Shown one piece after another: positions 31,291-60,200 of a stretch of DNA of 64,000 nucleotides (position 1 is the stretch's first letter; every line of letters starts with the position of its first letter). The notes beneath the pieces were generated by a model, which worked only from the letters and a program-made list of their open reading frames with translations, ran no database searches and was not told the origin of the DNA. Origin of the DNA: Bolinopsis microptera (Eukaryota > Ctenophora > Tentaculata > Lobata > Bolinopsidae); NCBI RefSeq assembly GCF_026151205.1, contig NC_087079.1, positions 11,832,635 to 11,896,634 on the forward strand, read 5' to 3'. The position numbers were made by a program, and so were the translations under genes.

Positions 31291-33285
31291 GGCTAATATT
31301 AAATGGTAGTGGAGTCTGTGCAGCTCTCCCAGCCCACCTTATTTTACTGATTTGAAGGTCCCATTTTATTGACCCAGTACAGGCTAATATTAAATGGTAG
31401 TGGAGTCTGTGCAGCTCTCCCAGCCCACCTAATTTTACTGATTTGAAGGTCCCATTTTATTGACCCAGTACAGGCTAATATTAAATGGTAGTGGAGTCTG
31501 TGCAGCTCTCCCAGCCCACCTAATTTTACTGATTTGAAGGTCACATTTTATTGACCCAGTACAGGCTAATATTAAATGGTAGTGGAGTCTGTGCAGCTCT
31601 CCCAGCCCACCTAATTTTACTGATTTGAAGGTCCCATTTTATTGACCCAGTACAGGCTAATATTAAATGGTAGTGGAGTCTGTGCAGCTCTCCCAGCCCA
31701 CCTTATTTTACTGATTTGAAGGTCACATTTTATTGACCCAGTACAGGCTAATATTAAATGGTAGTGGAGTCTGTGCAGCTCTCCCAGCCCACCTAATTTT
31801 ACTGATTTGAAGGTCCCATTTTATTGACCCAGTACAGGCTAATATTAAATGGTAGTGGAGTCTGTGCAGCTCTCCCAGCCCACCTTATTTTACTGATTTG
31901 AAGGTCACATTTTATTGACCCAGTACAGGCTAATATTAAATGGTAGTGGAGTCTGTGCAGCTCTCCCAGCCCACCTAATTTTACTGATTTGAAGGTCCCA
32001 TTTTATTGACCCAGTACAGGCTAATATTAAATGGTAGTGGAGTCTGTGCAGCTCTCCCAGCCCACCTAATTTTACTGATTTGAAGGTCCCATTTTATTGA
32101 CCCAGTACAGGCTAATATTAAATGGTAGTGGAGTCTGTGCAGCTCTCCCAGCCCACCTAATTTTACTGATTTGAAGGTCCCATTTTATTGACCCAGTGCA
32201 GGCTAATATTAAATGGTAGTGGAGTCTGTGCAGCTCTCCCAGCCCACCTAATTTTACTGATTTGAAGGTCCCATTTTATTGACCCAGTACAGGCTAATAT
32301 TAAATGGTAGTGGAGTCTGTGCAGCTCTCCCAGCCCACCTTATTTTACTGATTTGAAGGTCACATTTTATTGACCCAGTACAGGCTAATATTAAATGGTA
32401 GTGGAGTCTGTGCAGCTCTCCCAGCCCACCTAATTTTACTGATTTGAAGGTCCCATTTTATTGACCCAGTACAGGCTAATATTAAATGGTAGTGGAGTCT
32501 GTGCAGCTCTCCCAGCCCACCTAATTTTACTGATTTGAAGGTCCCATTTTATTGACCCAGTACAGGCTAATATTAAATGGTAGTGGAGTCTGTGCAGCTC
32601 TCCCAGCCCACCTAATTTTACTGATTTGAAGGTCCCATTTTATTGACCCAGTACAGGCTAATATTAAATGGTAGTGGAGTCTGTGCAGCTCTCCCAGCCC
32701 ACCTAATTTTACTGATTTGAAGGTCCCATTTTATTGACCCAGTACAGGCTAATATTAAATGGTAGTGGAGTCTGTGCAGCTCTCCCAGCCCACCTAATTT
32801 TACTGATTTGAAGGTCCCATTTTATTGACCCAGTACAGGCTAATATTAAATGGTAGTGGAGTCTGTGCAGCTCTCCCAGCCCACCTAATTTTACTGATTT
32901 GAAGGTCCCATTTTATTGACCCAGTACAGGCTAATATTAAATGGTAGTGGAGTCTGTGCAGCTCTCCAAGCCCACCTAATTTTACTGATTTGAAGGTCCC
33001 ATTTTATTGACCCAGTACAGGCTAATATTAAATGGTAGTGGAGTCTGTGCAGCTCTCCCAGCCCACCTAATTTTACTGATTTGAAGGTCACATTTTATTG
33101 ACCCAGTACAGGCTAATATTAAATGGTAGTGGAGTCTGTGCAGCTCTCCCAGCCCACCTAATTTTACTGATTTGAAGGTCACATTTTATTGACCCAGTAC
33201 AGGCTAATATTAAATGGTAGTGGAGTCTGTGCAGCTCTCCCAGCCCACCTAATTTTACTGATTTGAAGGTCCCATTTTATTGATA
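31291..33285. repeat. Minisatellite, 91-bp unit, about 22 copies
   Basis: Highly homogeneous units containing ggctaatattaaatggtag, tgtgcagctctcccagccca and attttattgacccagtaca. The array ends 12 bp before the acceptor of the SWIM-finger exon, and each unit carries tttactgat plus a T-rich tract ending in cccag, an acceptor-like arrangement. Few variants (a/c in ggtcacat versus ggtcccat) imply recent expansion. Confidence 0.95.
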
Positions 33286-38912: not shown

Positions 38913-41900
38913 ATGGAAGAAGAACATCATTGTAAACTGTACAACTGGCTTGTTCAAAGTGATTCTCTCAACAAATGTCAGAATCAGGTATTTCTATTAA
39001 TTCTATATATTGGTTTTGCTTTTAGTTAAAATGTCAGATCAATAGATCAGGATAAAAATAGTTCTATAGTTGTAAAGATTTTTACTTTGTAAATAACTGT
39101 ATATAATTCTGACAGTGATTCTGGGGTTTGATTCTAAAATAGTTCTATAGTGAACTAAAAATGTTCTCTCTGTAAATAACTGCATTGTTCTGACAAAAAT
39201 TTCAAAGTGGGTGTTTAATCTGTTTATTAGATTTTGGTAAAATTTTGATGATTACCTTCATGTCCACAGTTTCATGTTATTACTCACTCTACCATATTCA
39301 TTAACTTATTACTTATTATATATTATATGTTTTGATTTTAAGTCCTCAGAAGGGCACTTAATTAACAGTTTTTGACTGCACAGCAGATTAAAGCTTTTTT
39401 AAATAATTTTTATTCTTATTTCATTACTGTATGAACTTCATTCTAATTCAAATTGTAATTCTAAATTAGTCAATTCTGGAAGCTGATATTTTGATCACTG
39501 TTCATGTTGCTGTTATTAACACATCTTATTGCAAATCAGATTGAGGCGAGTAGAGTTTTGCAACGAATTGAAATCTTTGTGGACACTTTGGCAATCCTTG
39601 AGTTTGATGGTTATCTGGGAAATTGTCTTGTTGGAAATTATTTGCTATTTTGCAAGCTGAATCAAGAGGTGGCATGTCTAAAATTTGATGTTTTTAAAAG
39701 CAATAATATTAATATGTTATTCATTACATGAACAACTTGAATACTTGTGTATGATTTTGATAGATAATAATTGTGTGCGGAAGTTTATTGAATTATTAAA
39801 AATAACTATTAAGACCTTTCTCAGGTGCTTTTTGAGGTGTTCAAAGAAACAATAGAATCTGTCAACCAACTCTGGTGTATTATCAGACCCACTTCAGCCT
39901 TGAGGATTGAAAATCCTGAGCTTTTAAGCTCAGTTGACTCAACAGCTATGGTATTAACTTAGTCCTGAGTTGGTGCCAGCTGTTTTTTAAGACCTAGAAA
40001 ATTAAGCAGGGGGTGAAAAATGATAACAAATGATACTCCCTCAATATTTGCATTAGAATATGTTAAACTGTGTACTGCAGTCTCTCTAGGTAAACTATTG
40101 GGGACGTGTGATAGCCGCCAGGGATCCAGTACCTTACACACAGTCAACACAGTACCGCTGCTCCGCAGAGTTCTGCAACGGTGCTCACGACTCCTCTCAT
40201 ATCAGGTTCACATCATTTACTGATTAGGTACTCAGCTGCATGACACCTGCAATGAATTGCTAATTACACAGCTCATCTGAGGTTTTCATGCAAATTTGTT
40301 TTAAAAAACCGTCATGATATGAGGTTACCACACCCTTCCCAAATGAACTAGTAAGATTACATGTTTGAGGCCTTGATAAACCATTCCTGACTTAATAGCG
40401 TGCTGCGTTTTGTTTGGGACACCCTATGTATAATAACACAGTGTATATAGTGCACCCTGTATAATAACAGTTGTATAATCAATTGATTCCTAAATATCGA
40501 TAATATTATATATTGATGCAATCATTTTGCTAATTTGAAGAGTTGAAGAAAAAGCGATGAGATTTGTATTGCAGGGTTTACACACTGAACTCTAGAGAGT
40601 GTGATGTGATCAACTCTAATCTGCGCTGCACTGAGTGCAGTGGGCCTCTCCACGAGGATGTGGCAAACAGAACTATTGGCAGGCGCATGTCCATCTCCCT
40701 CCAGGTAAAATCTTAACTCCGGGGGCCGGGGGGGGGGGGGGGGATCAAATATGCAACTAAAATGCACAAGATTTCTCAGCTGAATAAACATACTCTACTC
40801 TAACACTGTACAGTGGGTCTTGGAAATTGGTTGTTAGTTTTGAATTATCTCTTCAGCTCTTACGTGTGGAAGGAGATGAGGCAAGGCATTATGTTGACTG
40901 TACTATAGATGTTCTTGTTCGTGACGAGCTTTTAACTCAAGTTACTCTGGGTAATACTAATTCACTCTTTCAACGGTAATATTTAATATTTAGCAGAAAT
41001 AAGACAGTTTTTTTGAATACTACAAACATGCTGACTTTAATATAGTTTTAAATCTAATATAGTTTTAATTCTATCATATTTTAATTGTAGGCATATTGAG
41101 ATCGCATTTTACGCTAGTTTACAGCACTTTTCCATAATTTATTAATTTCTTCACTTCAGATGACAGATCAGTTTTAGACACATTTTCTGTATCAGAACAA
41201 GCCAAATATTTGAAACTACTTGAAAAATGTTTTTATCTTTTATAACTATACTAAGCAAATAAATGCAGATTCAACTATCTCCAATTGCCCAGAATTGCCT
41301 AATATTCAAACTTATCGTCTCTATGTTTTACTAAGTAAGTAAAGTAATCTTCAGAACTGCATCACGGTGTACTCAGTAGTAAAGTAGTCGGGCAGGTCGC
41401 TCACCCAGGTTATTATCCCCAAGTCAGCACTCTCAGCCTCCAACAACATGTTCTGCCAGGAAGAGTAGCTGCTGCAGTCTCCCATACTCTCACTGTGGCT
41501 TTCTCCGCTAGATGTTGCGAACTGGAACATATCCTCCGATCCAACTGAAGTAATCATCTCAAAGTTGAAATCTTCAAGATAGTCCAAGTTGAGATACTCG
41601 GAGCAACCTCTGTTTCCTGACCATGGTCCATTGAAATAGAACCGTTTGTAACCCGTTAGCAGAACCTCTTCATCCTCAATTCTGGCATAGATAATGAAGT
41701 TTGTATGACCAAGTCTTGTTCCATTTCCATTGTACAGATTGACGTTTACACCCTGGTATAGATATTTGTCTGCCACTTTATTTTCAGTGAACTTCAACTT
41801 AAATACTGGGAGGTTTGAGGAGGTGAAGGGTCCGACCTCGTTGGATGTTGAGTTGAAGATGGGTGTCCACTCTGAAACAGTGATTAATTGTAAATTTTAT

Positions 41901-44900
41901 TACCGAACCTGGTGCACAGGACACTAGAGTACAGCTGCACTACTACTGTTCACATTTGTATCTTACTTCGGACATTCCAACAGCCATGTTTGTTACAATT
42001 ATAGGAAGCCGAAGGATTCAATTATTCATAAGGCCAGTGACGGCTAAGGTAGTGTGTACCATACTTTCTTCACGGTCACCCGGGTGCCGAGATTTCGCTG
42101 CAATAGGCAGCTCTTCATTTAACTTTCACACCCGATTTCTCGAGCATTTGGATGAGTGGATCAGAGAGGACTGTGCCGTATATTCTAGCTAAATCTACCA
42201 GAGAGGACTGTGCCCTATATTCCCGCTAAATCTACCAGAGAGGACTGTGCCCTATATTCCTGCTAAATCTATCTAGGAGGTGTTTTACCTGTTTGGTTAT
42301 CAGTTGAGTTATCTGACTGCAGAGTGATGTTGAGAGAGACGTGTCCGGAGTACTTGTAGGATGTGCAATATATTGAAGTGTCGTTGTGACCTGCTGTAAA
42401 GTTGTTAACGAACCCCTCTATGTCAGTAGAAATTGTGCCGTTGTTCCAATCGTAGGTACTTCTGTTGAATCCAGCGCTATACCAAGGGGAATCTGGAGAG
42501 AGTTTTGAGAAAGATTGTCCGTTAACGTACATTTCAAAGGTGTGATCTTCTTCAGGAGCAGCTATTGAGCAAGTTATAGAGCTTCCTTGTCCTATTATTG
42601 CATTTTGAGCTTTGGGACCTCTGATGTGGAAAATCACCTCTGTTTCTGAAATAGAATTCAAGTTTAACGGCTTATGATTCATTCTGGTAAAGTTTAAAAC
42701 GGCGAGTTTAATAACAGATTTTAAATTCAAATTTGTATGAACTACTCTGCCGTATATTCCCGCTAAATCTACCAGAGAGGACTGTGCCCAACATTCCTGC
42801 TAAATCTATTTAGGAGGTGTTTTACCTGTTTGGTTATCAGTTGAGTTATCTGACTGCAGAGTGATGTTGAGAGAGACGTGTCCGGAGTACTTGTAGGATG
42901 TGCAATATATTGAAGTGTCGTTGTGACCTGCTGTAAAGTTGTTAACGAACCCCTCTATGTCAGTAGAAATTGTGCCGTTGTTCCAATCGTAGGTACTTCT
43001 GTTGAATCCAGCGCTATACCAAGGGGAATCTGGAGAGAGTTTTGAGAAAGATTGTCCGTTAACGTACATTTCAAAGGTGTGATCTTCTTCAGGAGCAGCT
43101 ATTGAGCAAGTTATAGAGCTTCCTTGTCCTATTATTGCATTTTGAGCTTTGGGACCTCTGATGTGGAAAATCACCTCTGTTTCTGAAATAGAATTCAAGT
43201 TTAACGGCTTATAATTTATTTTGATAAAGTTTAAAACGGCGAGTTTAAAACAGATTTTAAATTCAAATTTGTATGAAACTACTCTGCCCTATATTCCCGC
43301 TAAATCTACCAGAGAGGTCGACTGTGCCCTATATTCCCGCTAAATCTACCAGAGAGGTCGACTGTGCCCTATATTCCCGCTAAATCTACCAGAGAGGACT
43401 GTGCCCTATATTCCCGCTAAATCTACCAGAGCCCTATATTCCTGCTAAATCTATCTAGGAGGTGTTTTACCTGTTTGGTTATCAGTTGAGTTATCTGACT
43501 GCAGAGTGATGTTGAGAGAGACGTGTCCGGAGTACTTGTAGGATGTGCAATATATTGAAGTGTCGTTGTGACCTGCTGTAAAGTTGTTAACCAACCCCTC
43601 TATGTCAGTAGAAATTGTGCCGTTGTTCCAATCGTAGGTACTTTTGTTGAATCCAGCGCTATACCAAGGGGAATCTGGAGAGAGTTTTGAGAAAGATTGT
43701 CCGTTAACGTACATTTCAAAGGTGTGATCTTCTTCAGGAGCAGCTATTGAGCAAGTTATAGAGCTTCCTTGTCCTATTATTGCATTTTGAGCTTTGGGGC
43801 CTCTGATGTGGAAAATCACCTCTGTTTCTGAAATAGAATTCAAGTTTAACGGCTTATAATTTATTTTGATAAAGTTTAAAACGGCGAGTTTAAAACAGAT
43901 TTTAAATTCAAATTTGTATGAAACTACTCTGCCCTATATTCCCGCTAAATCTACCAGAGAGGTCGACTGTGCCCTATATTCCCGCTAAATCTACCAGAGA
44001 GGTCGACTGTGCCCTATATTCCCGCTAAATCTACCAGAGAGGACTGTGCCCTATATTCCCGCTAAATCTACCAGAGCCCTATATTCCTGCTAAATCTATC
44101 TAGGAGGTGTTTTACCTGTTTGGTTATCAGTTGAGTTATCTGACTGCAGAGTGATGTTGAGAGAGACGTGTCCGGAGTACTTGTAGGATGTGCAATATAT
44201 TGAAGTGTCGTTGTGACCTGCTGTAAAGTTGTTAACCAACCCCTCTATGTCAGTAGAAATTGTGCCGTTGTTCCAATCGTAGGTACTTCTGTTGAATCCA
44301 GCGCTATACCAAGGGGAATCTGGAGAGAGTTTTGAGAAAGATTGTCCGTTAACGTACATTTCAAAGGTGTGATCTTCTTCAGAAGCAGCTATTGAGCAAG
44401 TTATAGAGCTTCCTTGTCCTATTATTGCATCTTGAGCTTTGGGACCTCTGATGTGGAAAATCACCTCTGTTTCTGAAATAGAATTCAAGTTTAACGGCTT
44501 AAGATTCATTTTGGTAAAATTTAAAACGGCGAGTTTAAAAACAGATTTAAATTCAAATTTTTGTGAAACTAACTTATACTTCTTAAATTAAATTACGGAT
44601 CATCAAATAAAGCTAATAATCAGTGACCTATGTAAGATTCTTAACAGGTTAATATGTTTTAATGTTCAAAAAGTGCATAAAAACACACTGAAACTATTTC
44701 AATTACCATTAGCAGCACCACATTCGAATGATTCGCATTTTTTGGATATTTTCTTCTCCACTTTAGCACAAATTTTCCTCTCCTTCTTCTTCATCTTCTC
44801 AACTGTTGTTGTGCAGTTCTTGAAGATTTTCGCTTGGTAACCTCTCTCAAGACAATTTTCTAATATTGGCACATTTTTCTTGCAAAACTTACTGCCGGCC

Positions 44901-46388
44901 TCAGCAGCCACTGAGAGGAACACCAGACCAAGAATTAGCTTTACAGATAACATAGTCATTGTTCTGAAAAAAGTCAACAATCAACAGAATGGTTAAAATT
45001 AGACTTATTTCATTTGAAAAATAACTGAAATCCCAGATTATTTTAACTGCTGAATTAGTGACTTGTGTTGAAGAAAATTGTGAAATTTAAACTTTTCAGA
45101 CTATTTTGTAAAATAACGAAATTCTACTTAAATACTTAAATTAAAACGTGTATCAAATTCAACAAGTGGGATATAAGGAAATGGTACGAATGTCACCGCA
45201 TGGGAGTTGGCACACTTTATAATTCGAACATCTCACTGGAAAAGTCAAACTGAAGTCCAATGTGGCCAGGTGGAGGGGGGGGGGGGGGGAGCTGAAAGCT
45301 CTAGTTTAAGCTAATTATATTTACAAAAACTGGCACTATCCAAAAAGCCCGACGCTCAGTAAAACGGTGGAATTTGACCGACACGTAATAAGGTAATATC
45401 TAGAGCATGTGGGCCGAACCAGCCAAATAGCAGATGATTGAGAAGTATAAGGGGGGTGGGGGGGGGGGGGGGGGGCGGGGGGTTGTGATGAACAATACCT
45501 CTTTTTTGTATTGAAACTCATCTGCAGCTGAATTATCTGTGCAAACATTCCATTGTTCACCTGATCTTTCCTCTTTCTTCAAGATTAAATTAAATTACGG
45601 TACAAACACAGGTGTGATTAACACAGGTGTGTTTGATAAAAGGAGTTTTATTGAACTCTCCAGTTTTATAGAGCTAAATTCCTAGTTGTTAATAACACCT
45701 GTACCTGCCGAGTTCCCATTATTTAACTATCCCTTTATTAAATTGTTAGAGATTAGAACAACTAATGATCTTTCAAGCCTCAAAATCTTTTAAATTCTAA
45801 ATCAACGTTCAAATGTGTAAATATTAAGACAATGTTCTATGTTGGCTGAGAAACCTTCCAGAGAAGATAGTGATTAGTCTCTGATAAATTTATGATAATT
45901 CTGTGTATGCGACAAAGCGAAAATTATCTTTTAAGGTAAAGGAAACTGTTCAACGTTTCAATGTGGCTACATCATATTCATGTTCTAAAAAGATTATAAT
46001 CAAAAATTCAAAACGTAAAAAATATTAATCGGATGCAAAATTAGTGTACTAAAAATTAATAACGTTAAATTCAAATAACTAAATCCAAAAAGTCTTGAAA
46101 CAAAATTATTTCAACATCCAATGAACATACGACGCCAGACGTTTCTAGAAAATTATACAACCCTGAATAAATAAGAAATACTGTACAGAAAGGATAGTGA
46201 TGTTAAAAATAATAATGCTACTTGTGTTAATAGGATTATATTATTGTTTTACATTGTTATATTATACACTATTTAACAACCAGCCCCCCAGGAAGCACAG
46301 TTTCAATAGTTGGGTTGCAGTACACTAAACTCAAACCCGGAACTAAACGCTACGTCTTAGAGGCGGTAAGTTTCCTATCAGTTATATC

Positions 46389-49400: not shown

Positions 49401-52400
49401 CATTATAGTGCCTAACAACAATAGATTTTCTTTCTGAGCAGTGCATATGGGAGTATGGGTTACGTGGCTAATGTTCAGAACTTCTGAACGTGCTAGGTTA
49501 ATAGATGTCAAAATTAAGCCACTATCGTCAAAAACGCTATTATTTTTGTTTACCAATATCCTCAAACTCAAATGAACGTGTCCATATATATATAAGTATA
49601 TATTCCATAATTTTGATATCTTTCCACAAATTTTGAAATCGTGAAACCCATATCTCAGTTATAATAATTATCCGTTACAGGTAAATGTGGAACAGATCAC
49701 CTCCCCAGTTCCTCGCTCCATACCTCGCTCTATAAAGGATATCTACTCAGTGAGGGAGAGGTCGCCATGGCAACTACTTTCTCTACTTGCTTTCTGTGTT
49801 ACACCCCAGTCTCTCCCTCAGGGTGCTTACCATACTGTCAAACAGGTACTTAATGTTTAACAATGTGTGTTATAGCAATGTAGCTTACTACGAGGACCAA
49901 AAGTTTTTGATAATTCTCTGTTTTGACTTTAAGTTTTTTTTAAAGCGTACTGAGAGACTCCCTAACTCCCAGCTGCTGTTGCTGAGCCTGATAAGGACGG
50001 GTCCTGTAAGGGACCCCACCTCCCCTCTCTATCTGCCCACTAACTCCCTAACTCCCAGCTGCTGCTGCTGAGTCTGATAAGGACGGGTCCTATAAGGGAC
50101 CCCACCTCCCCTCTCTATCTTCCCACTAACTCACTAACTCCCAGCTGCTGCTGCTGAGCCTGATAAGGACGGGTCCTGTAAGGGACCCCACCTCCCCTCT
50201 CTATCTGCCCACTAACTCACTAACTCCCAGCTGCTGCTGCTGAGTCTGATAAGGACGGGTCCTATAAGGGACCCCACCTCCCCTCTCTATCTGCCCACTA
50301 ACTCACTAACTCCCAGCTGCTGCTGCTGAGCCTGATAAGGACGGGTCCTGTAAGGTACCCCACCTCCCCTCTCTATCTGCCCACTGCTCACCCCGACCAC
50401 CTCCCCTCTCTATCTGCCCACTAACTCACTAACTCCCAGCTACTGCTGCTGAGCCTGATAAGGACGGGTCCTGTAAGGGACCCCACCTCCCCTCTCTATC
50501 TGCCCACTAACTCCCTAACTCCCAGCTACTGCTGCTGAGCCTGATAAGGACGGGTCCTGTAAGGGACCCCACCTCCCCTCTCTATCTGCCCACTAACTCC
50601 CTAACTCCCAGCTACTGCTGCTGAGCCTGATAAGGACGGGTCCTGTAAGGGACCCCACCTCCCCTCTCTATCTGCCCACTAACTCACTAACTCCCAGCTG
50701 CTGCTGCTAAGTCTGATAAGGACGGGTCCTGTAAGGGACCCCACCTCCCCTCTCTATCTGCCCACTAACTCCCTAACTCCCAGCTGCTGCTGCTGAGCCT
50801 GATAAGGACGGGTCCTGTAAGGGACCCCACCTCCCCTCTCTATCTGCCCACTAACTCACTAACTCCCAGCTGCTGCTGCTGGGTCTGATAAGGACGGGTC
50901 CTGCAAGGGACCCCACCTCCCCTCTCTATCTGCCCACTAACTCACTAACTCCCAGCTGCTGCTGCTGAGTCTGATAAGGACGGGTCCTGTAAGGGACCCC
51001 ACCTCCCCTCTCTATCTGCCCACTAACTCACTAACTCCCAGCTGCTGCTGCTGAGCCTGATAAGGACGGGTCCTGTTACCTGTAAGGGACCCCACCTCCC
51101 CTCTCTATCTGCCCACTAACTCACTAACTCCCAGCTGCTGCTGCTGAGCCTGATAAGGACGGGTCCTGTAAGGGACCCCACCTCCCCCCTCTATCTGCCC
51201 ACTAACTCACTAACTCCCAGCTGCTGCTGCTGAGTCTGATAAGGACGGGTCCTGTAAGGGACCCCACCTCCCCTCTCTATCTGCCCACTAACTCACTAAC
51301 TCCCAGCTGCTGCTGCTGAGTCTGATAAGGACGGGTCCTGTAAGGGACCCCACCTCCAGCTCCCCTCTCTATCTGCCCACTTACTCACTAACTCCCAGCT
51401 ACTGTTGCTGAGTCTGATAAGGACGGGTCCTATAAGGGACCCCACCTCCCCTCTCTATCTGCCCACTAACTCACTAACTCCCAGCTGCTGCTGCTGAGTC
51501 TGATAAGGACGGGTCCTATAAGGGACCCCACCTCCCCTCTCTATCTGCCCACTAACTCACTAACTCCCAGCTGCTGCTGCTGAGTCTGATAAGGACGGGT
51601 CCTATAAGGGACCCCACCTCCCCTCTCTATCTGCCCACTAACTCACTAACTCCCAGCTGCTGCTGCTGAGTCTGATAAGGACGGGTCCTATAAGGGACCC
51701 CACCTCCCCTCTCTATCTGCCCACTGCTCACCCCGACCATCACCCCTCTCTCAACCTGCTCCTCCAGTCCCCTCACACTCTACACTCCTCTCGTCTCCTA
51801 GCTCTCATGGCTCTGTTAACTGATGTGCAGGTTTAGTTCTAGTGTGCTACTTTGTTAAATATACATGTATTTAGGTATTAATATTTGGGTTATTTTTTAC
51901 ATGAATTTTGAAATGTAATAATTTATCTATAATTTAAAACAAAAATCGAACTGTTTGACCTATTTGTTAGATTTTAAGGCCATTCAAAATTTGGACATAA
52001 GTCTTGAAACACCTGCACCCTGTACTTGTAGATTCCTAAGAAGTTTTATTACTTTAAAATCCCCTGTAAGTGAAAATCATAATATGAATTTGCTGAAGGA
52101 AAATTACAATTGTTATCCTTAATGTAGATTTTCCAGGCCTTTAAAAGTATGAACACTCTGGGTGGAGTGAGAGATGGGAACACACTTCACGCGGGGCTAT
52201 TAACCACCTCATCTGGTTTGTAGATTATAAGTTACTACCTACATGTTGCTTTAAGTTGCTTGAATATAGATTGTAACTATTTATCACACACACAGATATT
52301 TAACTATTTATTGTTGTTATTTATATACTAGTTTAAAACCCGTGCCCACGGCAGGGACTTCACTATCGCAGTTGAAATGCAAAAGTATAAACCCGCCGCG

Positions 52401-55400
52401 CCTATCACCTTAATAACACCAGAATGTGTGTGTGTGTGTGTGTCTGTCTGTCTGTGTGTAATTTCCGGTCGGTTACACAAAAAAAGCGGTAAGAGTTACG
52501 GGACTGGTTTTTTCGGTATAGTGCCGACAAAACTCTGATGAAGCCCATACGAAATTTTTTTTTAAATCGGCCGGTGGTAAGTGGTTTAATTGATGGTTTT
52601 GTACCACAAATGTTACATAAAATTGCTTGAGCAGAACAGCTAGAGTTACGGGGCTTGCTCTCTCTCTCTCATTACTGTATTATATGTGATAGCTGCATTT
52701 AAGTAGCGTCATAATTGGATTAGCCCGGAATATTCGCTGTAATGTAATACCATAAGCTTATTAGGGGAGGAGGACTGTTAGTGTTTGGGTTCTGTTTGGA
52801 CCGCATGAGAGAGAGAGTTCATACGACAATGTTATGCGTGTTTTCAAATATAATATGCGGGTGTGGTGCGGAGTTAACAAGGGTTAATTTCTATAACGAT
52901 TTAAAGAAAAATAGAAAGCGGTTCAAGAATCAAGACGGGAGTGATAAGGTGTAATACTCGGTCCCGGTGTTCAGACCTTATGATCATGGAGTGTGGTGCC
53001 TCATGGCTAATAATGACTGAAATATCCACAAGAAATAACTGATTATGAGATTATTGTTTAAGAAACTATTGGGTCACCTAATGCGGATTTTGACTCAGCG
53101 GGTAATTACTCCTACCCTTTTTAACTGCGGCAGTGAAATCCCGGCCGTAGGCCGGGTTACACTAGTTATATAATATATTCGAAAACATGCATCACATTTT
53201 CGTAGTTAAAACGGTGCAAAAGTATGAACTCGCTCAGTCCAAACACACCGCAATTTAATTGTGAATGCCTCTCACATATCTAATAGTAATAAGTGATAGG
53301 CAATCTTGAGGTCCCCTGCCAAATTACCTAATTATATAGTAAATCTGTAGTAACTATAAGGGGAGAGAGGTTGAGTAAGTGAGACACTTTAGTATCACAA
53401 TTCACATTTGGGTAAAAAATGATCAATTAAACCACTTACCACCGGCCGATTTAAAAAACCTTATTCATGTGGCTCGGTTAGAGTTTTGTCGGCACTATAC
53501 CGAAGAAATCAGCCCCGTAACTCTTACCGTTTTCTTGATAAAGCCGTTCGAAAATTACACGCGAACGAAAACACACATCTTGATATTATTAGTATAGATT
53601 ATTAATTTACATATTAATTATTCAATCATATACAACTAATTCTAACTACTGTATTGATACAGGTGGTGTAGCAGTGGTTAGTGATGTGGATCTAATGAAG
53701 AAGGAAGATGTGCTCTTATTAACATCTACTCTTCAAAACAGAGCTGTCATTATCGGCAAGAAGAAAACTGAAGTAATCCCTATTAATTTAAACATTGTAC
53801 CCCCCCCCCCCCTGTAGCTGTGCACATTGTACCCCCCCCCCCCCTGTAGCTGTGCACATTGTACCCCTCCCCCCCCATATCATGTAGCTGTGCACATTGT
53901 ACCACCTGTGGCCTGTAGCTGTGGACATTGTACCCCCCTGTAGCTGTGCACATTGCACCCCCCCTGTAGCTGTGGACATTGTACCCCCCTGTAGCTGTGC
54001 ACATTGTACCCCCCTGTAGCTGTGCATATTGTACCCCCCCTGTAGCTGTGCACATTGTACCCCCCTGTAGCTGTGCACATTGTACCCCCCTGTAGCTGTG
54101 CATATTGTACCCCCCTGTAGCTGTGCACATTGTATCCCCCCTAGCCTGTAGCTGTGCATATTGTACCCCCCCCCCCCCTGTAGCTGTGCATATTGTACCC
54201 CCCTGTAGCTGTGCACATTGTACCCCCCCCCCCTCCTGTAGCTGTGCAAATTGTACCCCCCCCCCTGTAGCTGTGCACATTGTACCCCTCTTTCGTGCGC
54301 ACTATGTGTTGTCTGGCCCTTGTTTTGCACAGTAAAATTACTAGTCACTTCAGTAGTGTTAACCTCAGATATTCCCCCTGGAATGTGCTATTTGGGGTTA
54401 TCAGTCTAACACAACAAAGTCATCTACTTCTGCCTGGGACATTGTATATAAGGTACCATGATTACTCTTTACACTGTTACACTGTTACACTGTTACACTG
54501 TTTCGCATTACTCACTACACATTACATATTAAACTGTTACACTGTGTCATGTGTTACACTATATATAGGTTACAAAGGAATGCGACGAGACTGCAAGTAT
54601 TGAGAATGTTCTAGAAGGAAGTACTGAAAGTTTACTACCTGAGGTAGATGTTAAGGCTTACTTAGCACTCGCCTCTACCATCTGTGTGCAGGTTTTATAT
54701 GTTTTAATGTTTTCTGATTAGGCGTAACATTTATATTACAGGTGTAACATTTATATTATAAAGATTTTGCAGCTGTTTTTATTAACTTTCACTGCAAAGT
54801 TGTTAAAGTGTGTAAGTTATTATTTGTTTTCAGTATGATAAGAGTTGCACGAGGCTGATAGCAGGATACTGCCAGGCCTCTAAGTCAGTTAGATACGGTA
54901 GTGACTGTGAACAACCACAGCATGCCTCCTATACACTTCACCTGTTGGCGGGAAACCACTCCAGGATCAACTTTAGGGATATTGTGAGTTAAAGCTCCTG
55001 GTTCGTTAAACCTGTTAAACAGTTTGTCTCAATAGATAGTTTTGTTTGACGCTATTTTGTGTGATGGTAGGTAGTATAGACCTTGTTACAGTGTTGATTA
55101 CAGGTACTGGATGTTGATGCAGTGGCCGCTATAAAACTGTACGAAGAGAGCTTATTGTCGTCTCAACATTACTCCTCTGTACACATAACGACCTCCACTC
55201 ACATAAATCCAGGTTATTATTAGATAATTAATAATTAGATAATTAATAACTAGATAATTAATAATTAGGGCAGGGTAAATTAGGACAAACTTTACTGTCA
55301 CTGCGCTTCAATGCTGAAGTATTGTAAATACTTGTTGTTTATTGATAAAACTTTGGTGGAAACAATCTGCATATTGTTACAAATCCCCCTCCCCCCCGCC

Positions 55401-55570
55401 CCCCCCCCCCAACATATAATAATATGACAATGTACATAATACTGTTACAAGGCGACGAAGATGAGTATTTAGGTGACAATGTAGACGGAGCAATGGAACA
55501 GTTTTACTCCAAATTAGTTCAGTTCTGTTCGACTCATATTGCTGGATTCTCTCCTCATAACGAAGATTGA
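38913..55570 (+). CDS. MCMDC2: MCM domain-containing protein 2 (MCMDC2), 15 exons
   Basis: Exons 38913-38987, 39540-39668, 39825-39950, 40090-40205, 40575-40704, 40857-40950, 46292-46365, 49681-49845, 51657-51830, 52137-52215, 53663-53772, 54569-54691, 54834-54983, 55104-55212 and 55452-55570 join in phase to 590 codons plus stop (vertebrate MCMDC2 is about 680, so an N-terminal exon may be missing). Recognised landmarks are PYTQSTQYRCSAEFC with a second pair CTEC (zinc ribbon), GAYHTVKQLLLLSLIRT, a Walker-B-like GGVAVVSDVDLMKKED, and C-terminal VLDVDAVAAIKLYEESLL. The family is the MEI-217/MEI-218-related meiotic MCM paralogue needed for recombination in animals; nuclear action in meiotic cells is inferred. 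Walker B has D-x-D instead of the usual DE, so ATPase activity is doubtful. Intron 6 hosts an opposite-strand gene. Confidence 0.85.
41351..44959 (-). CDS. Secreted protein with four near-identical Ig-like domains (6 exons), nested in MCMDC2 intron 6
   Basis: Exons in transcript order are 44959-44707, 44472-44116, 43827-43471, 43182-42826, 42645-42289 and 41871-41351, together 733 codons plus stop. The first encodes a signal peptide (MTMLSVKLILGLVFLSVAAE) and a Lys/Cys-rich segment. Each of the next four is exactly 357 nt, phase 1-1, and encodes one Ig-like domain (ITCSIAAPEEDHTFEMYVNG ... HNDTSIYCTSY) with several N-glycosylation sequons. They differ by only a few residues. The last exon (EWTPIFNSTSNEVG ... 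DYFTTEYTVMQF) encodes an unrecognised C-terminal domain. No membrane segment is seen, so secretion is likely. The ATG follows a splice-acceptor-like ttttttcag, implying a 5' UTR exon. Ig repeats suggest a recognition or adhesion role, but none is shown. Confidence 0.8.
41945..42150 (-). mobile_element. SINE fragment (same family as 12470-12815)
   Basis: Shares its body with the SINE at 12470-12815 (attccaacagccac, gaagccgaaggatt, ggccagtgacgg, taccatactttctt, cccgatttctcga) but lacks the tRNA-like head. It lies in the intron before the last exon of the Ig gene. Confidence 0.7.
42158..44100. repeat. Tandem duplication of an Ig exon plus flanking intron (about 645-bp unit)
   Basis: Exon starts recur at 42289, 42826, 43471 and 44116: spacings 537, 645 and 645. 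Introns are copied with the exons. The spacers hold a small minisatellite, ccctatattcccgctaaatc plus taccagagagg and cgactgtg (42180-42265, 42755-42800, 43285-43460, 43930-44095), whose copy number explains the unequal spacing. Near-identity of exon and intron indicates recent duplication or gene conversion. Confidence 0.9.
44960..46291. other. Rest of MCMDC2 intron 6
   Basis: AT-rich sequence with G-rich tracts (45276-45289, 45451-45482). It should contain the promoter and 5' UTR exon of the nested Ig gene, but no convincing motif was found. Confidence 0.4.
46792..46837. other. Perfect-arm hairpin in MCMDC2 intron 7
   Basis: The arm aaatttctccacaatt is mirrored as aattgtggagaaattt around a loop of about 14 bp containing ggttcgag. 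Function unknown; it may be a terminator-like or transposon remnant. A 41-bp G-run lies nearby (46391-46428). Confidence 0.6.
47350..49588. mobile_element. 2.2-kb terminal-inverted-repeat element with mirrored TTTGTCACA motifs
   Basis: Termini are perfect inverted repeats of about 39 bp: tatatggacacgttcatttg at the left, and caaatgaacgtgtccatata at the right end. The flanks are TA-rich, so the target duplication (possibly TA) cannot be delimited. The interior has about 18 copies of a ttgtcaca-type motif: predominantly ttgtcaca in the left two thirds and its complement tgtgacaa in the right third. It also has three tandem copies of a roughly 310-bp unit (starts near 48203, 48514 and 48826, each with aggggcaagacatg). 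No transposase is visible, so it is non-autonomous. It lies in MCMDC2 intron 7. Confidence 0.8.
49945..51725. repeat. Exon-derived minisatellite, 86-bp unit, at the MCMDC2 exon 9 acceptor
   Basis: About 20 copies of an 86-bp unit precede and merge into exon 9 (51657-51830). Each unit carries cccactaactcactaactcc, with two branch-point-like ctaac motifs, then cag, then the first 69 nt of the exon (LLLLSLIRTGP-RDPTSPLYLPT). The last unit is the real exon start; only it continues into the rest of the exon. One internal copy (about 50385-50400) contains gctcaccccgacca, which belongs to the exon continuation, showing exchange between exon and array. Unit length is not a multiple of three, so the array must be spliced out or used selectively. 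Confidence 0.92.
52325..53168. mobile_element. Non-autonomous inverted-repeat element in MCMDC2 intron 10
   Basis: The left end (ctagtttaaaacccgtgccc, 52328 onward) is mirrored by the right end (ggccgggttacactag, ending about 53165), with cgg-ccg-rich inner parts and ttcact/agtgaa. This ACCCG...CGGGT end type is common in invertebrate MITE-like elements. No coding content. Confidence 0.6.
53410..53608. mobile_element. Inverted partial copy of the preceding element
   Basis: Complement of about 52480-52600: accacttaccaccggccgat, agttttgtcggcactatacc and cccgtaactcttaccg appear in reverse order, ending ttattagtatagatta. The two copies in opposite orientation could pair over about 150 bp in the unspliced MCMDC2 transcript. 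Confidence 0.65.
53795..54292. repeat. Minisatellite, 26-bp unit, after the MCMDC2 exon 11 donor
   Basis: About 18 copies of ctgtagctgtgcacattgta plus a variable run of C. The array begins about 25 bp after the donor of exon 53663-53772. The opposite-strand open frames (MCTATGG, QLQGG repeats) are repeat artefacts. A small gttacact repeat follows at 54473-54502. Confidence 0.9.
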
Positions 55571-57292: not shown

Positions 57293-60200
57293 ATGCGAAC
57301 CAACGTGGTTAACCGACGCGCACATATAGAAATTAGGGAGCATGTTTTGGCGGCAGCATCGTATTTCATATCAATGTCGGCTAACAATTTGTCTCTTGTT
57401 AGCAATATGTTAGGAACTAACAAAGACCCCAGAACGGCCCATACCAACAGAAATGACTACGAGCTTTTCCTGCAAGCCTTTCAGAAACCCACTCAAATAT
57501 ACAAACTTCTTGGCTACAGGCACTGTGTCAATGTGAGTTGAGATATCAGTATTTTAGTTACTTTAACATGTTTGATTTGTTCTATTGGAACATATAAGTA
57601 TTGAAATCGGATAATAATATCACTCAGTAAAAATTTCTATCCGTGATACATTCAGCCTCTGTTCCTGCACCGCACATTGTCCTACATGAGACACAGACAT
57701 GTTCCAGTTAGGAGACAGCACAAATCAATAGAGACACTTGTTAAAGAGCTCAACAAAAAGGTAATTAGCATTATTACACGGTTGATGGTAGGGTTTATCG
57801 TGTCGCCTTTTAGAGTTAACTTCATGTATTATAATATAGAGTATATATTAGACATATATTATAAATTGAGTTTGTAGCGTATATATGACGCTTTGCCCTT
57901 GTCAGAGGGTCTATCATTATGAGTTTAGATTGAAATTGGCTAATCTCCTCTGAATTGAATACAAATAACACACGTTATTGCCGACGTTTCGCCCCCATGG
58001 CTTCTTCAAGGCGGAACAAAAACTTTGTTACATAGTGACCTGGTAAATATCCAAATTAATACATAAAACTCTGAGAAACATTAAAAATAAATGGGAAGAT
58101 TCTAAGCGGTAGAAAATTTTTAAAGCAAAAGATAGATGTTAGGCCAAAGAATCTAGAACTGTCCAATATTTGAGAGCTAGACCAACGTACACAGAACAGC
58201 AACGAAAATAGCTTCCTACTCCCTAACATTTTCGGGGAAACTGAAAGGGTGCCACGTACATATATTATGATGACATTTACATAATAGCCCATGTGGTCTT
58301 TTGCCACGAGTCTGCTTCAGGTGAGAGCTGAGTGTTTATTTTAGAACAAGATTTCACATACAGTGAAGCTGAACCAGGAGATAGACCATCAAATCTCATG
58401 CCTGTGTATTGCTGGAACAGGTATGTTGATGACTGTATCACTATAGGGGAAGGAACAGAAAATGACGTCAGTCAACTCTTTAAGTATGTTAACACGCTTA
58501 ACCCGAAAATTCAGTTCACATATGAAGCTAACCCTAAACAAATAGACTTCTTAGATCTCACTATCCACTTGCAAGAGAACTCAGATAAACCACAATTCGA
58601 ACTCTTTATAAAACCGACAAGTTTGGGCATATTCCTCAACTACAACTCTGGACATCCGAGAAGTACTATTATGAATAGTGCTAGGAACGAGTTGTTAAGA
58701 GCAGTGAGAAATGGGTCTACAGACGAATTCAAACAACGTGGTGTAAATAAAATCAAAGACATGTTACTCTCCAACGATTTTACACCCAGTGTTATAGAGA
58801 GGTTGACGAGGGAAATAAACAAAGATAAACCACCTAACCAGACACGACTGAGAATCACACAGTACCTAAGCCTCCCATATGTTAATGAATACCACAAACG
58901 GAAAGTATATCAGATTCTACGTCAAAATGATCTATTGGACAAAACCAAAGTATCATTTTATCCGGACAAGAAACTGGGAGAAATACTCACTAGATCAGCA
59001 CTACACCCTACACCATGTAACAAACAGAGTGCTTCAAAGTGCTATGATTGTGATGATCTATGTATGCAGAAGAACATAGCGTACAAACTGACATGCAATA
59101 TCTGCAATGCAAAGTACTGTGGTGAAACAGGCAGGTTCAAACGCAACAGATGCTGGGAACACCTAAAATCTGTAAGGAATAAAAATAACAAGACAGCCAT
59201 GGGGAAACATTATCTCATGTCACACCCTGAAATAAAAGAAATTCCTATCGAACCATTTAAATTTGAAGTCCTCAAAGTATGTAAGGATTATGCAGACCGA
59301 ATGATCTGGCAATCACTGTATATCAAGCAGTTACTTCCTAAAAGAAACACTCAGTTCTCACCTGAAGCAGACTCGTGGCAAAAGACCACATGGGCTATTA
59401 TGTAAATGTCATCATAATATATGTACGTGGCACCCTTTCAGTTTCCCCGAAAATGTTAGGGAGTAGGAAGCTATTTTCGTTGCTGTTCTGTGTACGTTGG
59501 TCTAGCTCTCAAATATTGGACAGTTCTAGATTCTTTGGCCTAACATCTATCTTTTGCTTTAAAAATTTTCTACCGCTTAGAATCTTCCCATTTATTTTTA
59601 ATGTTTCTCAGAGTTTTATGTATTAATTTGGATATTTACCAGGTCACTATGTAACAAAGTTTTTGTTCCGCCTTGAAGAAGCCATGGGGGCGAAACGTCG
59701 GCAATAACGTGTGTTATTTGTATTCAATTCAGAGGAGATTAGCCAATTTCAATCTAAACTCATAATATATTATAAATATTAAATAGTACCAATAATTTTC
59801 AATTTTCCTACATTACATATCTTTTCTTTAGGCAACCGCTGAGGAGCGGAACAAATCTAGAGAGGGCAGCTACAAAATCTCCATCACTGGCATCGACAAT
59901 AAAAGTGAGTGGACGTGGGTATTTCAGCAGACAGGTGTTGTTTACTGCTTTATCTGGATCATTATTTATCTACGTGATTATCAGAAATTTAACTGCTTTG
60001 TTTGGAGTCGTTCACATATTACGTAATCATTTTTTGGAACATTTTTACCCCCCCCCCCCCCCCTCCGTAATCAGTTTTACACATAGCTATTGTTGCAAAA
60101 TTACACTAGCGTAATCATTCGGAAACCCCCCCCCCCCCCCCCCAGCTGATTTCGTAATATGTGAACGACCCCTTACGATAGTTGAAATTTCAGTCCTCGA

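Follow-up and report, generated by a model that had tools for sequence, protein, structure and literature searches.

A tandem array of an intron end and exon start in a likely MCMDC2 gene resembles the 'mirage' minisatellites of amphioxus

Introduction

Minisatellites that lie across exon-intron boundaries, termed 'mirages', are known from amphioxus Adh3 and from the amphioxus globins BflGb6 and BflGb9 (PMC3087553, PMC3902484), with PGBD5 and TnC as further examples (PMC3902484). In these mirages both splicing and length instability were examined, and splicing is reported to be undisturbed (PMC3087553, PMC3902484). Comparable arrangements are described in other settings. In intron 7 of the human factor VII gene the 5' splice site is repeated, and normally the most upstream copy alone is reported to be used (PMC6627357). 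In human segmental-duplication genes, the expansion of internal tandem repeats where exon meets intron can alter splicing or give rise to introns, and a repeat-retaining transcript is also supported for 66% of the intron modifications (PMC2812944). Exon four of the earthworm metallothionein gene has duplications that are described as absent from the final transcript (PMC12783039).

Here we describe an array of this general kind found in a stretch of DNA of 64,000 nucleotides (the window), where 20 near-identical 3' splice sites, the authentic one included, stand in front of a single coding exon. Among open-licence PMC papers, we found no report of this array.

Results

Anatomy of the array

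TRF detected a tandem array with a period of 86 at 49957-51725 of the window, reported in two pieces (49957-50385, 5.0 copies, 96% matches; 50397-51725, 15.3 copies, 95% matches) because of one odd unit. Cutting the sequence after each CTCCCAG gave 20 exon-start copies, 19 upstream ones and the true exon's own, with starts from 49973 to 51657; a 21st match to the pattern, at 51795, was discarded as an unrelated TAG/CT within the exon. The 86-bp unit joins the last 17 nt of an intron (AACTC[A/C]CTAACTCCCAG) to the first 69 nt of the exon that lies at 51657-51830. Both the minisatellite of about 20 units and the presence in each of the first 69 nt of the exon (51657-51725), as claimed in a first-pass annotation of the window, were therefore recovered, by TRF and by cutting at the acceptor.

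Identity between the copies is about 97%, and 16 of the 19 upstream units are exactly 86 bp long, the longer ones being those at 50317 (123 bp), 51042 (93 bp) and 51307 (92 bp; Table 1). The same annotation had noticed sequence from deeper in the exon within one internal unit, and we find that unit 50317 indeed carries 14 nt of it (GCTCACCCCGACCA), which within the window occurs only at 50386 and 51726, which means that the array at some time took in an exon-side end.

When the exon and its acceptor were compared with the whole genome (the window's own assembly, 264,652,675 bases or 264.65 Mb in 232 contigs, best candidates scored), all 20 matches listed fell within the array. A transposable origin was rejected, since the unit is exactly an intron end plus an exon start and the 20 listed genome matches are all here. 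On the minus strand no frame of at least 60 aa runs across the array, and an Rfam search of the window gave no match at the gathering score.

Table 1. Features of the array and its host gene, in window coordinates (a slash marks an exon border; intron letters of modelled donors in lower case).
Feature	Position	Strand	Remarks
Exon upstream of array	49681..49845	+	165 nt, both borders in phase 0, donor CAG/gtactt; exon 8 of the first-pass annotation
5' part of intron	49846..49956	+	111 nt ahead of array; presumed original acceptor context would survive only before unit 1
Tandem array	49957..51725	+	20 units, each the last 17 nt of the intron + the exon's first 69 nt; array ends inside the exon
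Chimeric 123-bp unit	50317..50439	+	50386-50399 = 14 nt of deeper-exon sequence (as 51726-51739), re-joined to the repeat at CCA microhomology
Example of potential donor, GTAAGG	50989..50994	+	unit 50956
93-bp unit	51042..51134	+	7-bp insertion shifts GTAAGG to +40
92-bp unit	51307..51398	+	insertion of 6 bp
Intron end of terminal unit, authentic acceptor (no. 20)	51640..51656	+	17 nt, AACTCACTAACTCCCAG
Authentic exon	51657..51830	+	174 nt, phase 0-0, first 69 nt within array, donor CAG/gtttag
Predicted hairpin GGGTCCT-ATAA-GGGACCC, true exon	51683..51700	+	RNA folding; the same hairpin in GTAAGG units loops the potential donor
Six downstream exons	52137-52215, 53663-53772, 54569-54691, 54834-54983, 55104-55212, 55452-55570 (stop)	+	complete MCM-like frame

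The host gene

Eight exons on the plus strand (49681-55570) were placed by eye and then checked by script for AG/GT borders and a joined frame. Together they give one open frame of 1029 nt with a stop at its end, encoding 342 aa, and the seven modelled introns measure 120-1811 nt. This frame supports the start of the array-bearing exon at 51657, where the first-pass annotation, provisionally numbering it exon 9, had put it, and its end at 51830. An exon finder built on codon usage, with 27 long frames and the eight modelled exons as its training set, could not tell short exons from background when other arrays over exon boundaries were sought, and was set aside.

All 11 of the PDB matches of the 342-aa peptide up to an E of 1 were MCM proteins, each match being weak (best E 0.061). 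The two array-side exons alone had no match in PDB, and no Pfam family was found for the two-exon peptide or for the spliced C-terminal half; a match of an N-terminal piece to the Pfam family DUF7815 was set aside as being at chance level (E 0.12). The gene also fits vertebrate MCMDC2. At the Walker B position the peptide reads AVVSDVD, against CLIDEFD in MCM2, in a weak alignment with the junction 52215/53663 inside it; such a degenerate Walker B is as expected of MCMDC2 proteins, from which the conserved Walker motifs are described as absent (PMC5070785). On these comparisons, the host gene is likely to be MCMDC2.

Another gene, on the minus strand (41354-44980), is apparently nested in the MCMDC2-like gene, with a candidate exon of the latter at 40575-40704 on one side and the exon at 49681 on the other. 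It contains four tandem copies, about 540-645 bp apart, of one exon that by eye is Ig-like, and 37-40-bp minisatellite arrays are found between some of these copies.

Acceptors and splice signals made by the repeat

Each unit had been credited with a cag acceptor and two branch-point-like CTAAC motifs. The acceptor is present in all 20 copies, and the pair of motifs in front of 18 of them, the acceptors at 49973 and 51399 having one motif each. In most copies the first CTAAC (starting at -19) is the product of the repeat junction, CCCACT+AAC; ahead of unit 1 it is missing, and ahead of unit 51399 it has been altered. From unit 2 to unit 20, the pyrimidine-rich tract upstream of the acceptor (CCTCCCCTCTCTATCTGCCC in most) comes from the coding part of the copy that precedes it. 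With a CTAAC made at a repeat junction and a pyrimidine tract derived from coding sequence, the authentic exon now has splice signals that arose by duplication. The original context of its acceptor is presumably GCGTACTGAGAGACTCCCTAACTCCCAG, upstream of unit 1, which would place that context 1.7 kb upstream of the authentic exon.

The acceptors of units 2-20 do not look weak, having both a pyrimidine-rich tract and a CTAAC, and their local context is nearly identical to the authentic one. The layout of the array bears out the proposal that, of about 20 near-identical acceptors, the last alone would lead into the full exon. The earlier remark that 86 is not a multiple of three, and that the use of upstream copies would usually break the frame, turned out to be an understatement: for each of the 19 acceptors upstream, the read-through frame is closed by a stop 25-35 codons beyond the preceding exon, also in cases where its whole length is divisible by three.

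Potential donors and a predicted hairpin

The units also contain potential donors, which the first-pass annotation had overlooked, as it had the junction-made CTAAC and the named precedents. CCT/GTAAGG is found in 13 of the 19 upstream units, in frame at +33 in 12 and at +40 in one (unit 51042). The 33-nt piece between acceptor and +33 donor encodes LLLLSLIRTGP in all 12 units, and placing all 12 pieces before the true exon leaves the frame open, without a stop. Counting from +33, the next acceptor follows after 53 nt in 16 of the 19 units and after 59, 60 and 90 nt in the rest. ATAAGG stands in place of GTAAGG in units 50059 and 50231, in the last three upstream units (51399, 51485 and 51571) and in the true exon, and unit 50870 has GCAAGG at the donor position.

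Pairing with the 5' end of U1 gave the array donor a duplex of -4.8 kcal/mol. Among eight donors of the gene, namely those of seven modelled exons and that of the candidate exon ending at 40704, one had a duplex of -3.3 kcal/mol (GAA/gtaatc) and the other seven ranged from -5.5 to -8.3. Folding predicts that the potential donor lies in the loop of a 7-bp hairpin, GGGUCCU-GUAA-GGGACCC, with -13.0 kcal/mol and a z of -2.3 for a 25-nt piece. The hairpin is only moderately better than shuffled sequences; two whole units give z -2.1 and -1.0, and the exon in context gives -1.55. Masking of the potential donor by such a structure is plausible in this model.

Turnover of the units

Twelve of the 86 columns vary between units, 10 of 69 in the exonic part and 2 of 17 in the intronic part. 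Adjacent units show 2.16 differences, compared with 2.68 in random order (permutation p 0.012). Units 50231, 51485 and 51571 and the true exon's own unit are identical over 86 nt, which indicates that homogenisation includes the exon. The first unit is divergent, with a mean of 4.2 differences against 2.7 overall, but unit 51399, within the array, diverges no less. Of 10 pairs of shared variant sites, 9 show every one of the four possible combinations, implying exchange or recurrent mutation. Exonic differences are synonymous in 6 of 10 cases, the expected fraction being 0.32-0.36 (P 0.06-0.11, not significant), and in the 33-nt segment at 4 of 5 variable sites (P 0.05-0.09, not significant).

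Genomic setting

Tandem repeats make up 25% of the window, as against 13% of a 284-kb stretch that includes it. Of the arrays in the window, 66 after merging, a single one overlaps the eight modelled exons at any point. In so minisatellite-rich a window, an array over an exon boundary is not very surprising.

Three other arrays (53792-54288, 54720-54758 and 55219-55268) start 20, 29 and 7 nt past donors of the MCMDC2-like gene and leave the exon borders uncrossed. By a post hoc count, 3 of 7 donors have an array 7-29 nt downstream where 0.22 would be expected (P 0.0014); in this genome, arrays may have a tendency to begin next to the ends of exons. The top-scoring array of the window is a different one, with a 91-bp unit, 21.9 copies and 98% matches (31291-33283). 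Elsewhere in the window there are 18 internal telomere-type CCCTAA repeats (1257-1364) and a 357-codon open frame (58332-59402) that by eye resembles a reverse-transcriptase element with a GIY-YIG-like end, of the Penelope-like kind.

A genome search with the Pfam family Myosin_head (65 of 94 candidates scored) showed, among the 73 matches listed, no run of three or more copies per exon stretch; exon pieces as short as the array's 23 codons could escape this search. Mirages with detectable exon pieces appear not to be frequent in the myosin family. Two pairs of matches (C3:9158961/9159442 and C6:14613342/14613659) partly overlap. The adjacent pair whose sequence was read, C3:9154012-9154203 and 9154255-9154485, was rejected as a mirage, being two diverged whole exons and hence ordinary alternative exons: neighbouring variants of a single motor-domain exon, with about 50 bp between them, in a myosin gene that we take to be of the muscle type.

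Discussion

A probable neutral array

We think it quite probable that the array is a neutral minisatellite of the 'mirage' type, tolerated via exon definition and spliced to its terminal copy. A segment reaching from -17 to +69 nt around the intron-exon boundary would have been tandemly duplicated, and the duplicate would then have been amplified and homogenised by unequal exchange or conversion reaching into the living exon, giving an array that would have no positive function. Such an array could be tolerated because exon definition decides splicing: a genuine donor follows, after 174 nt, the terminal acceptor only, so that the upstream copies would be treated as intron. With the potential donors, which 13 of the 19 upstream units carry, exons would mostly be 33 nt long and split by 53-nt introns, and it is perhaps due to these dimensions, together with the predicted hairpin, that these donors would stay silent. 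We infer, from the arrangement of the sequence, that the terminal acceptor is used and the other acceptors are not.

In keeping with this, neighbouring units are more alike than chance order would give, the exon's own unit is homogenised with others, one unit is chimeric, and all 19 read-through products contain a stop. The spacing of 53 nt is well below the 120-1811 nt of the modelled introns, and the potential donor pairs with U1 worse than seven of the eight gene donors and sits in a predicted hairpin. The amphioxus mirages, reported to leave splicing undisturbed, and factor VII, with one repeated donor normally chosen, are precedents for such tolerance. At the same time, one gene donor (GAA/gtaatc) pairs worse still, which counts against the argument, as do the acceptors of units 2-20, which do not look weak, and the hairpin, which is only moderately better than shuffled sequences. 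A real constraint on the copies, of the kind that the non-significant synonymous excess could reflect, would argue against pure neutrality.

Could the copies do something?

The array could act as a brake on splicing, with some transcripts joining upstream copies, meeting a premature stop and being destroyed, so that copy number tunes the output of the gene. The stops after all 19 upstream acceptors, 25-35 codons on, and the acceptor contexts of units 2-20, nearly matching the authentic one, would suit such a role. However, the stops are inherent to this 86-nt unit and selection is unnecessary to explain them, variable columns are, by raw counts, similarly frequent in the intronic and exonic parts, and published mirages are reported, in the accounts cited, not to disturb splicing (PMC3087553, PMC3902484). 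We therefore regard a brake as unlikely.

A very unlikely alternative, in our estimate, is that CAG/ and CCT/GTAAGG bound 33-nt in-frame cassettes (LLLLSLIRTGP), any number of which could be included, giving the protein a stretch of variable copy number. That acceptor and donor lie 33 nt apart in 12 of the 19 upstream units, with one peptide and an open joint frame, fits this, as does the synonymous nature of four of the five variable sites in the segment, but this excess is not significant (P 0.05-0.09). Moreover, the cassettes would need introns of 53 nt in 16 of 19 cases, when the smallest of the seven modelled introns has 120 nt, and a moderate donor that is bound in a predicted hairpin. 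A repeated peptide would, we presume, also duplicate part of the conserved MCM core.

In most upstream copies the acceptor is followed after 33 nt, in frame, by a potential donor held in a predicted hairpin, and this raises the idea of a self-insulating decoy, in which a mis-spliced copy would yield either a harmless 11-residue insert or a destroyed transcript, and selection would have shaped which copies seed the exon. The pattern that suggests it is the ATAAGG of the living exon and of the last three upstream units, all of which thus lack the donor GTAAGG. We consider this highly improbable.

Finally, since tandem arrays are error-prone in assembly the copy number may be inexact, but that the real locus has one or few copies and was inflated by misassembly is barely credible, as a misassembled single copy would not invent shared and private variants and three insertion units, one of them chimeric.

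What the array may tell us

The locus amounts to a natural experiment in 3' splice-site choice, with 20 near-identical acceptors, 19 of them in near-identical context, and only the last of use; the question that it raises is whether the last among 20 near-equal acceptors wins. If the last copy alone is used, as a neutral mirage would have it, exon definition overrides a first-come choice, and if several copies are used, proximity or scanning matters. The array suggests, too, that a coding exon in use can be homogenised together with a minisatellite, in which case the sequence of that exon would be partly hostage to repeat turnover. Lancelet genomes are generally larger than the 264.65 Mb of this assembly. 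Should the animal be other than a lancelet, mirages are spread more widely than the cases so named in print that we found among open-licence PMC papers.

Comparison with known systems

In human segmental-duplication genes there is likewise minisatellite expansion at exon-intron boundaries, but the repeats there average 30 bp x 4 and belong to recently duplicated primate genes (PMC2812944). Factor VII intron 7 resembles the array in having highly homologous tandem repeats that contain potential splice sites, vary in number and have one site normally chosen, and differs in that 37-bp units repeat the donor, the most upstream of which is used by oriented scanning (PMC6627357); here, it is the 3' splice site that is repeated, and only the most downstream copy leads into the full exon. 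Alternative tandem exons, such as those of the myosin gene in the same genome, are also tandem exon copies within one gene, but the myosin pair consists of two diverged, apparently complete exons, unlike the roughly 97% identical exon starts of the array.

The amphioxus mirages come closest. They too are minisatellite-like tandem copies across an exon-intron boundary, keep AG/GT signals in many units and are described as turning over by exchange within the cluster, and in BflGb6, as here, the 3' end of an intron is repeated together with the 5' part of the next exon (PMC3087553, PMC3902484). The host gene is different, and BflGb6 haplotypes are described with 6 and 3 units of 150-160 bp, compared with 20 copies of 86 bp here. 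Moreover, the exon-side copy of our array is identical to its two neighbours, whereas the boundary units of BflGb6 are described as excluded from homogenisation. With its minisatellite-sized tandem units, its kept splice signals and a spanned boundary that follows from the open frame, the array matches the anatomy of a mirage, and we judge it to be a large further case of this known type, with a copy number above that of BflGb6.
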